The notes under the pieces: model-generated
The model's database searches: none
The model's input: the letters and a program-made list of their open reading frames with translations, nothing else
What the model was told of the DNA's origin: nothing
DNA from: Aliiruegeria haliotis
GTDB lineage: Bacteria > Pseudomonadota > Alphaproteobacteria > Rhodobacterales > Rhodobacteraceae
Assembly: GCF_003003255.1 (NCBI RefSeq)
Contig: NZ_PVTD01000001.1
Location: 806,001 to 870,000, forward strand
Direction: 5' to 3'
DNA length: 64,000 nt
In this document: positions 19,322-26,767 of the stretch, one piece after another
How the letters are laid out: the number at the start of each line of letters is the position of its first letter
Position numbering within the stretch: position 1 is the stretch's first letter
Program-made: the position numbers and the translations under genes

Positions 19322-24413
<5,092 letters not shown>

Positions 24414-24440
24414 ACCCGAGTACACGTAATGTTCGCAAAT

Positions 24441-24455
24441 GTTCTTAAAAAGTTC
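24441..24455 (+). promoter_or_regulatory. LexA (SOS) box, GTTC-N7-GTTC
   Basis: GTTC at 24441-24444, seven bases (ttaaaaa), then GTTC at 24452-24455: an exact match to the alphaproteobacterial LexA operator known from Caulobacter, Rhodobacter and Rhizobium. It lies 28 bases after recG and 69 bases before a 40-residue ORF. A third GTTC at 24431 is spaced by six, not seven. Confidence 0.65.
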
Positions 24456-24523
24456 TTTACTTTTGGCCACCGGAATGAGAACAAAGAGACAACACAAGAG
24501 TTCAAAACCCACAGGACTTGCCC

Positions 24524-24646
24524 ATGCTGACCGAGATCAAGGCGATGCTGCGCCGCTCAGACACCACGTTGTTTCTCGACTTCGTAGGCGTCGTGGCGCT
24601 GATGGTCACGCTCGTGGCTGGCCTGCACCTGCCGGGAGGATTCTGA
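24524..24646 (+). CDS. 40-residue SOS-box-linked membrane protein, unknown function
   Basis: A short frame from ATG 24524 (MLTEIKAMLRRSDTTLFLDF) to TGA 24644-24646, with an AGGA ribosome-binding site 8 bases upstream. Residues 1-14 are charged and helical. Residues 15-36 (LFLDFVGVVALMVTLVAGLH) form one membrane helix, and the tail is LPGGF. The unit is self-contained: LexA box, ORF, then a strong terminator at 24788. Architecture and control resemble Caulobacter SidA, a 29-residue SOS-induced inner-membrane division inhibitor, but no sequence identity is claimed. It could instead be a constitutive conserved peptide. Confidence 0.65.
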   Translation: MLTEIKAMLRRSDTTLFLDFVGVVALMVTLVAGLHLPGGF

Positions 24647-24787
24647 CACCTGTTTCTGCCTGCGATCTGAAGCCGGTACCGCGCGTCAATGTCCCCAAGT
24701 ACGCGCTGCCACGGTACACTGCCTGTCCCCGCTGGCCTCTGGGCGCGCCTCGCCCTGACCAACCGGCCTCACAGATTCGCGACTTTG

Positions 24788-24822
24788 CCGCCGCCGTCCG
24801 ACAGGACGTGCGGCGGTTTTTT
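24788..24822 (+). terminator. rho-independent terminator
   Basis: Stem CCGCCGC/GCGGCGG (24788-24794 with 24810-24816), one bulged T, inner stem CGTCC/GGACG, loop GACA, and a run of six T (24817-24822). It serves the 40-residue ORF on the + strand. The convergent chemoreceptor gene ends four bases beyond it. Confidence 0.85.
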
Positions 24823-24825
24823 CTG

Positions 24826-26244
24826 TCAGACGCTGTAGGCCAGCCGCAAACCGCCCCAATGCCGCCCCCGGACGAGGATCGGCGCGGACACGTCTTTTAT
24901 GAGCACATGGTTCCCGCCCCCCATATCGCGCCGATAGACCTGTACGAGGAAGCTCAGCGTGTTGCGGCCAGCCTTCAGGCCGACGCGGTCGTCAAAGATC
25001 CGCCGGTTCCGGCAATTTGCAGTGTTCCAGACCGGATCGCTCCCCTGTGGCCGGGAGAAGGCGCGGTTGTGAGTGGGGAGGTAGCCATTCCGATCAACCG
25101 CTGCACAGAAGACAACCTGCGGATCAAGCTCCAGCGCAGCCTCGAGGATCGGCGGCAGCAATGTGTCCGTCAGCGTGGTGAAAGGCGCCAGCAATTGCTG
25201 CGGGTTGGTGTTGGCGATGGGCTGGTAGTCACTTGAAAACAGGGCCTGGCCACTGATTTTCCCATCTTCGATGGCCTGTTCGAACATTTTGCCGATCGTG
25301 GTGGCATCCTTGCGCACCCGCTCGATGAAGGCGGCGTCCTGTGACGTGCCGCCGAGTTCCACACTCCCCTGCACGATCGCTTCGGAATAGTCGACGAGGG
25401 CGTGCACGCGGCTCCGCGATTTCTCGATTCCGCTTGCGGTTTCCTGAACGGAGGCCGCAATCCGGGAGAATGCCGGCTGAAACCGGTCGATGGCGTTGCC
25501 GACAAGCGATGCCTCCGCCGAGATCTTCGTGGCTGAAGTGGCGGTGGTGTTCACGCGTTCGGCGATCCGGGACAGCGCGATATCCGCCTGATGGGACTCC
25601 TGCAAGACCACGGCAGCGTCATCGGAGACACCCGTGGATTCCTCCCGAAAGGTGGAGATGACATTGCCGAGGCTGTCCACGGAGACCGATATCCCTTCGG
25701 CTGCGGTTTCCGTCTGATGGCTCAGTTCGTTGATGGCATCGGCGACCACGGCAAACCCCCGACCCGCGTCGCCAGCCCGCGCAGCCTCGATTTTCGCGTT
25801 GATTGCCAGAATGTTGATCTGCTTGGCAATGGTCCCGATTTCGCTGTTGTTCTTCTGAACATTGGCGAGCGTGTCTTCGACGGCGGCCATACGGTCTTCG
25901 ATCTGGCGGACCCATTCGGCGATGTTGCGCGTCCGTTCACCGGCCTTGCGTAGGTCGGCCACCGATCCCTGGACCTCCGCCTGCGCCGTTTCGCTCACGG
26001 CCGAAACATCGGAGATGACCTGTTGAACCGAGGAGTTTGCGGCGATGATCTGGTTGGCGGCGCCGTGGGCGTCTTCCAGCGTGGAGAGCTGCCCCCGCGC
26101 CGTCTCCTCGATCTCGTCGAGAAGACCGGCAATGTCGACGACGTCGAAACCGATGTCCGATGCTTGCCGGACTAGCCGCGCGAGAATCGTGGCGTCGCGC
26201 GCCTGAATCGGTTCGGCCAGGTCGAATGGTGGATTGGGCTGCAT
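24826..26244 (-). CDS. soluble methyl-accepting chemotaxis protein
   Basis: Chemoreceptor-like signalling protein of 472 aa with no membrane segment, so probably cytoplasmic. The central coiled-coil carries the conserved tip sequence ([20 protein letters not shown] then [15 protein letters not shown]) that contacts CheA and CheW in this family. The C-terminal 150 residues form a separate domain ([20 protein letters not shown] ... [10 protein letters not shown] ... [20 protein letters not shown]), resembling a Cache/PAS-like sensor placed after the signalling domain. ATG 26244 ([12 protein letters not shown]) is used; the frame upstream overlaps the next gene. The ligand is unknown. Confidence 0.82.
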
Positions 26245-26320
26245 CTGTTGCTGAGGCTCTCTGCGCGGATCGGTCGATCGCGACCCTAGCGGAGAGCCCT
26301 TGCCACGGAGTAAACGCGGC

Positions 26321-26767
26321 TCAGGCGGCTTCCTCGGCCTGTACCAATGCCGCGGCGGTGGCATCGAACGCAAGCAGGATCGACGCATGGCGATTGCTGA
26401 AATCCCGTGCCGGCAGAAGCACTTCCAAGTCATCGAACGGGGCGGATGGGACCGGTCCGTCGGCCTGAAGCATGGCCCGAAGCTGATCGCGCGCGGTCTC
26501 GATCTCCTGCCGGTTCCGGCCGATCACATGGCGCCCGAGCACCGCGGCGGAGGCCTGCCCAAGTGCGCAGGCCTTCACGTCCTGCGCAAAATCGACAATG
26601 CGACCGTCGTTCACGATCAGGTCGACACTCACGGTCGAGCCACAGAGCGGCGAGCGTTTCCGCACCGTCGCGGTAGGGCTGTCGAGCTTGCCAAGGTGGG
26701 GGATGTCTGCGGCCAAAGCGAGAATCCGCCCGGAATAGAGCTTGACGAGGTCGAGATCGCTGGCCAT
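26321..26767 (-). CDS. NifU/IscU-like iron-sulfur scaffold protein (atypical)
   Basis: Resembles the IscU/NifU N-terminal scaffold on which Fe-S clusters are built. Two cluster cysteines are in place, C42 in [10 protein letters not shown] and C67 in [10 protein letters not shown]. At the third position, where IscU has His-Cys-Ser, this protein reads H127-A128-S129 ([13 protein letters not shown]). The length (148 aa) fits the family. It lies divergent to hisI and upstream of the chemoreceptor on the minus strand. It may not hold a cluster in the normal way. Confidence 0.78.

Follow-up and report, generated by a model that had tools for sequence, protein, structure and literature searches.

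Small membrane peptides with a single helix under LexA control are known from TisB and DinQ, which are enterobacterial type I toxins with antisense RNAs, type I toxins being mobile and multicopy, and dual-function RNAs and sRNAs derived from 3'UTRs are known from the SgrS/SgrT type. A described system close to the present locus is SidA of Caulobacter crescentus, which, in the parts of the published accounts available to us, is an alphaproteobacterial, SOS-controlled, very small inner-membrane protein of the GTTCN7GTTC regulon. This motif is the published Caulobacter SOS box (PMC9578287, PMC12700426, both consulted in part). According to the accessible sections of the respective reports, SidA and DidA act on FtsW and FtsN (PMC4211646), and in other bacteria YneA, SosA and ChiZ are small membrane-bound division inhibitors that are induced by SOS and act at a late stage (PMC13396833). 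For Dinoroseobacter shibae, the portion of the study on LexA sites available to us names in silico sites at lexA, pde2, flagella, dprA, recA, GTA and pilus genes, and its main text does not mention recG.

The window, that is, the whole stretch of 64,000 nucleotides of Aliiruegeria haliotis DNA analysed here, carries beside recG a compact unit of a LexA-type operator, a 40-codon gene and a structured 3' region closed by a terminator (Table 1). As with SidA, an SOS-type operator accompanies a single helix, predicted by hydropathy, in a very small protein. The protein has 40 residues compared with the 29 of SidA (compared by description only), its partner is suggested by analogy whereas binding of SidA to FtsW has been shown according to the sections available, and a structured 3' RNA is present here, of which the SidA descriptions, in the parts at hand, make no mention. 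YneA and ChiZ carry a LysM domain, whereas the 40-residue protein ends a few residues past its helix. The likeness to TisB and DinQ lies in LexA control and the single membrane helix; the present gene differs from them in being deeply conserved at one place. Like dual-function RNAs and 3'UTR-derived sRNAs, the unit combines on one transcript a small protein with a structured RNA in which C-rich motifs recur, but it differs in its SOS-type operator, in the membrane protein encoded upstream of the RNA and in matching no Rfam family at threshold. The reading we favour, to which we give even chances, is a LexA-repressed SOS gene beside recG whose one transcript yields a membrane damage checkpoint protein and a folded 3' RNA.

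Table 1. Features of the unit next to recG, in window positions.
Feature	Position	Strand	Basis or remark
GTTC ladder, GTTC-N6-GTTC-N7-GTTC	24431..24455	+	third GTTC at 24431 added to the preliminary description
Perfect alphaproteobacterial-type LexA box GTTCTTAAAAAGTTC, the last two GTTC of the ladder	24441-24455	+	exact match
TTTAC, -35-like element abutting the box	24456..24460	+	in the consensus of 31 orthologs; promoter role inferred
Second, imperfect box GAAC-N7-CAAC, which may overlie the start of transcription	24479..24493	+	ortholog comparison
Ribosome-binding site AGGAC	24513-24517	+	sequence
40-codon gene, predicted N-in single-pass membrane protein; stop 24644-24646	24524..24646 incl. 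stop	+	
3' RNA, structured and conserved, with closing helix P1, inner hairpins and motifs rich in C/U	24647..24786	+	
CTGCCTGCGATCTG, 5' arm of P1 with the first CUGCC(UG) motif	24656..24669	+	
CTGCCTGTCCCC, second motif and complement of the ribosome-binding site before ccrM in this genome	24719..24730	+	
CACAGATTCGC, 3' arm of P1	24770..24780	+	
Intrinsic terminator, hairpin and T run	~24787-24822	+	

A preliminary description of this DNA had recognised the perfect GTTC-N7-GTTC operator, the 40-codon frame with its ribosome-binding site and one membrane helix, and a strong terminator at 24788-24822, and had read them as a self-contained, LexA-controlled unit next to recG. All of these elements are found where it placed them, and comparison supports its view of a LexA-type operator, a small protein with one predicted membrane helix and a single unit, so that its reading is borne out in part; what it overlooked is the conserved structured RNA that separates the stop codon from the terminator. 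It had also proposed a tblastn search with the 40 residues and named lack of conservation of the frame or the box as evidence against its reading; both turned out to be conserved. The search matched 28 of 60 relatives, namely 27/36 members of the own family and one weak match outside it (E 0.56), and a profile built from the 27 orthologs matched 216/248 genomes sampled from the family (188/215 of good quality), leaving 32/248 family genomes with no match to the profile. Seven of 385 genomes of the class were matched, five of them in the own family, which is a class-wide count and not a family rate; the other two matches were weak, partial and inside long open frames of other families, so that no convincing match outside the family was found among the genomes sampled. 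Among the matches listed, nearly all family genomes with a match had exactly one.

We collected 108 copies of the unit, including one duplicate record, with 107 distinct in operator plus gene and 106 distinct proteins; L173 (Seohaeicola) and L011 (G013) share the same unit sequence. recG lay directly upstream in 106/108 copies, the exceptions being L097, where it is slightly beyond the 600-nt limit, and L004, where it was not found. In the window, the first GTTC of the unit follows the recG stop codon by 17 nt, the unit ends in its own terminator, and beyond it a convergent open frame on the minus strand (24826-26433) presumably encodes a methyl-accepting chemotaxis-type protein.

Taken alone, the box is weak evidence, as its frequency is near chance: GTTC-N7-GTTC occurs four times in the window against 2.02 expected, a number reached by 14/100 shuffles, and 184 times genome-wide against 101 for the pattern read backwards. 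It is conservation that gives it significance. To avoid circularity, 31 orthologs were picked through the protein only, and their upstream regions were anchored on a GTTC adjoining TTTAC or a close variant (found in 31/31), TTTAC thus being part of the preferred anchor. GTTC-N7-GTTC, with its first GTTC at -11 from the last, preceded the gene in every one of the 31, whereas of 4200 segments of 200 nt drawn at random from the loci only 83 (2%) contain it. A direct-repeat box of the same type stands before lexA in 25/25 and before recA in 24/25 of the ortholog genomes tested. A reverse scan of a public genome collection with the composite GTTCN7GTTCTTTAC-N18-GAACAA returned at least 117 stretches, 80 of them given as loci; 77 of these 80 precede a frame of the same gene family (76 recognised through a loose D-x-x-G pattern, L122 on visual inspection), L116 (Sagittula marina) ends 72 nt after the operator with the frame region outside, and the remaining two, from records of Thermolongibacillus and Acidimicrobiaceae, appear to be chance matches. 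Because the operator is present in 31/31 orthologs, the lexA and recA boxes are alike and the reverse scan leads back to the gene family, LexA repression of the small gene as part of the SOS response is well supported by inference. We consider it vanishingly improbable that a chance box stands beside a chance frame, a notion to which only the near-chance frequency of the box lends anything and which the conservation of box and frame refutes.

Around the box, an extra GTTC lies 10 bp further upstream (-21 from the last GTTC) in 28/31 orthologs, a GAAC stands at the fixed distance of 27 bp downstream in 30/31, and GAAC-N7-[CG]AAC is present in 27/31; a second perfect box, GAAC-N7-GAAC, occurs in none of the 31. 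The upstream GTTC, with its 10-bp spacing (24431-24434 in the window), fits no LexA box, and no canonical -10 element was recognised in the promoter region. These features would suit a different regulator binding the GTTC ladder, with SOS control only apparent, since the extra GTTC and the fixed GAAC both lie outside the LexA box. The 11-bp direct repeat is, however, perfect in 31/31 orthologs and of the same type as the lexA and recA boxes, and we hold such a regulator to be quite unlikely.

The small gene itself appears to be selected as a protein. The length is exactly 40 residues in 75/108 copies, and the distance from a conserved Asp to the protein end is 22 residues in 94/108; the start was mostly taken as the most 5' ATG, and in the 13/108 copies shorter than 38 or longer than 42 residues it is uncertain. 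In the window, an alternative TTG start at 24518 would give 42 codons. Raw pN/pS, taken from 57 moderately distant pairs among 75 sequences, was 0.31, and variation was greatest at the third codon position; by these measures, the frame is under coding constraint. The hydrophobic segment spans approximately residues 16-36. After the best 17-residue hydrophobic window, K or R occurs in 0/108 copies, and all copies have more K/R before it; this one-sided charge therefore suggests an N-in, single-pass membrane protein. Searches of Pfam, NCBIfam, PHROGs and PDB with the window protein gave no match, 27 members gave only single weak matches to family libraries (best DUF3149, E 0.02, in 1/27), and the protein profile matched nothing in PDB up to E 1; hence, no family match assigns the 40-residue protein a function.

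Of 103 units whose sequence beyond the stop codon was analysed, the terminator was delimited in 96 (93 by pattern, three by hand-set patterns). Among the first 40 of 86 terminator-free bodies of at least 100 nt, the mean folding z was -2.5, with 62.5% below -2; the window copy has a z of -1.96, with 9/200 shuffles folding as well. In an alignment of 25 sequences, the closing helix P1 is paired in 90.6% of cells with double changes in 6/9 pairs, and its covariation score of 0.398 exceeds that of shuffles (0.170; 0/500) and of slid helices (at most 0.140), P1 having been predicted on the very alignment used for scoring, which favours it. In a second clade (n=9), P1 and a hairpin whose loop contains CUGUCCC covary (0.262 against 0.145, 0/500), and in a third (n=13) 10/14 predicted pairs show double changes, as a raw count without control. 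The own-genus alignment (n=9) gave 23 consensus pairs, five of them double-changed, with an unfavourable covariation term (+1.32), and its consensus fold places GUCCC in a stem. A test of own-arm against cross-arm duplexes for P1 was weak (26/94 below 5% of the cross pairs; median 11.6%), and we prefer the column-wise test because the arm swap pools relatives and long GC-rich arms. Comparison across clades thus argues that the transcript ends in a structured RNA that is conserved, is closed by a covarying helix and may have a function of its own. A permissive Rfam search of window positions 24000-25200 gave two matches far below the gathering score, and the loci of ten relatives gave none.

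Two short motifs recur in this RNA. CTGCCTG occurs 121 times (71/94 bodies) where shuffles give 3.5, and TGTCCC occurs 104 times (77/94 bodies) where they give 11; the mean unpaired probability over the 94 bodies is 0.70 for CTGCCTG and 0.76 for TGTCCC, compared with 0.50 for all C. The predicted fold of the window copy leaves CTGCC unpaired in both motifs and pairs TGTCCCC of the second one in part.

For possible targets of these motifs, the window genome was searched for GGGGACAG shortly before ATG, which gave 24 places against seven for the reversed pattern. The plausible gene starts among them included that of what we take from its sequence to be a CcrM-type DNA methyltransferase; ccrM was chosen after the search. 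Its leader carries GGGGACAGAGGCAG before the ATG, and the computed duplex with CUGCCUGUCCCC of the RNA reaches -28.4 kcal/mol. AGGCAG lies at most 24 nt from the ccrM start in 25/25 genomes with the small gene (L254-L278), which is unusual, the longer GGGGACAG in 7/25 only. AGGCAG was found in 3/1105 other leaders, a background crudely defined by the first ATG of long open frames with many starts probably wrong (GGAG in only 165/1427), and the true value may be higher. Of the family genomes without a protein match, one in eight (G448) has AGGCAG at ccrM, G022 has it farther upstream, and two more gave no ccrM match; among 22 genomes from other families it was found in none, four of the 22 being uninformative (three without ATG, and G064 on a truncated locus).

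In a CcrM tree with rough supports, 7/8 non-carriers branch at the base, and G030, which has neither the gene nor AGGCAG, falls inside the carriers. The co-occurrence of AGGCAG and gene is therefore mainly one shared origin and one joint loss, because of which the Fisher value of 2e-6 overstates the association. Ranked by the longest complement to unpaired RNA against 300 background leaders, ccrM falls within the top 5% in 15/24 genomes, but whole-RNA duplex energies do not single it out (median rank 0.55; best 5% in 0/24). Five of the 25 genomes keep AGGCAG at ccrM though their RNA stretch has no CTGCCT, and one of these, G033, also gave no terminator. Covariation in the second half of the pairing was not significant, at 9/11 against 6/14 (one-sided Fisher 0.058) and, with a laxer motif, 11/16 against 4/9 (Fisher 0.22), both values ignoring relatedness. 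Several tests thus speak against the ccrM ribosome-binding site, and as ccrM was picked after the search we treat it as a lead, a candidate target suggested by complementarity. A checkpoint with two arms, in which the protein would block septation and the CUGCCU/UGUCCC motifs of the 3' RNA would pair with the ccrM ribosome-binding site, seems rather unlikely to us; if true, DNA damage would also hold back the cell-cycle DNA methyltransferase. As another candidate, nrdR was dropped: GGGGACAG precedes it in the window genome, yet AGGCAG does so in 1/25 genomes, and the seed test placed it in the best 5% for 4/24 only. With 19 sites in the window genome, the pattern GGGACAGGCA is not enriched, as its reversed form has 28. 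In the nrdR leaders (L279-L303), GGGGAC lies within 24 nt of the start in 15/25 genomes.

The RNA might be not an accessory but the chief product of the unit. It would then act by base-pairing, its CUGCCU and UGUCCC motifs blocking ribosome-binding sites during the SOS response, and the peptide would be a second function. The strong excess of largely unpaired motifs over shuffles would be expected of such an RNA, as would AGGCAG in all 25 ccrM leaders against 3/1105 crudely defined others. The coding constraint on the frame, on the other hand, means that the protein matters; the duplex energies leave ccrM near the middle of the background, AGGCAG persists in the five genomes whose RNA has no CTGCCT, and in the own genus GUCCC is paired in a stem with an unfavourable covariation term. 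We regard the RNA as main product as doubtful, though the likeliest of the alternatives. Somewhat less probable still is a protein that acts as an SOS-induced, membrane-depolarising peptide like TisB and DinQ and slows metabolism, not division. The gene's single match in nearly all family genomes with a match, among the matches listed, and its recG neighbour in 106/108 copies are unlike the mobile, multicopy type I toxins, and outside the best hydrophobic window the protein has charges on the N side only. What recommends depolarisation is the combination of LexA control and a single-helix peptide, as in dinQ (PMC3567139, in the part available).

Under the favoured reading of a LexA-repressed checkpoint gene, the unit would have been inherited in place beside recG in Rhodobacteraceae; the conservation of frame, operator, position and RNA fold is established by comparison of the genomes. 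We infer that LexA binds the perfect box, which lies at the -35 region, that it may also bind the imperfect second box near the start site, and that SOS induction follows when RecA-driven LexA cleavage after DNA damage releases transcription. A single transcript would then provide the 40-residue protein and the folded 3' RNA ending at the terminator. The protein would presumably insert with its charged N-terminus in the cytoplasm and its single helix through the inner membrane, and it would most likely serve as a membrane damage checkpoint, probably binding to a membrane protein of the divisome in the way that SidA binds FtsW; the 3' RNA would act in trans or stabilise the transcript. The checkpoint is proposed because small SOS membrane proteins blocking late division recur, according to the accessible parts of the sources (PMC4211646, PMC13396833); by this analogy, inhibition of division is plausible, and outright division arrest is our guess. 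The explanation as a whole gains from the coding constraint, the fixed length, the one-sided charge and the conserved RNA fold, and it is weakened by the unrecognisable -10 element, the misfit of the GTTC at 10-bp spacing and the 32/248 family genomes with no match.

If right, it would provide a candidate SOS checkpoint gene for Rhodobacteraceae, a large marine and phototrophic group, present in most of the sampled family genomes and matched by no family in the libraries searched, and its RNA part would extend the alphaproteobacterial SOS response to post-transcriptional control. In the open PMC literature on this locus, on LexA in the group, on division inhibitors of the SOS response and on ccrM with sRNA, with subscription papers mostly outside its scope, no title or abstract opening among the papers listed described the unit; an earlier description or automatic annotation of the small gene is possible.

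The triple GTTC ladder was also considered as a genome-wide signature and rejected: the window genome has two exact sites, the present one and L335, and, allowing at most one mismatch, 50 sites against 40 for the reversed pattern. In many recA promoters (L037-L061; seen by eye, uncounted), a GTTC-N7-GNTC-like half box lies upstream of a full GAAC-N7-GAAC, a layout that resembles a mirror of the operator arrangement of the small gene. Three tandem GAAC half-sites in 11-bp steps are present in 6/25 lexA promoters (L066-L068, L070, L074, L075).
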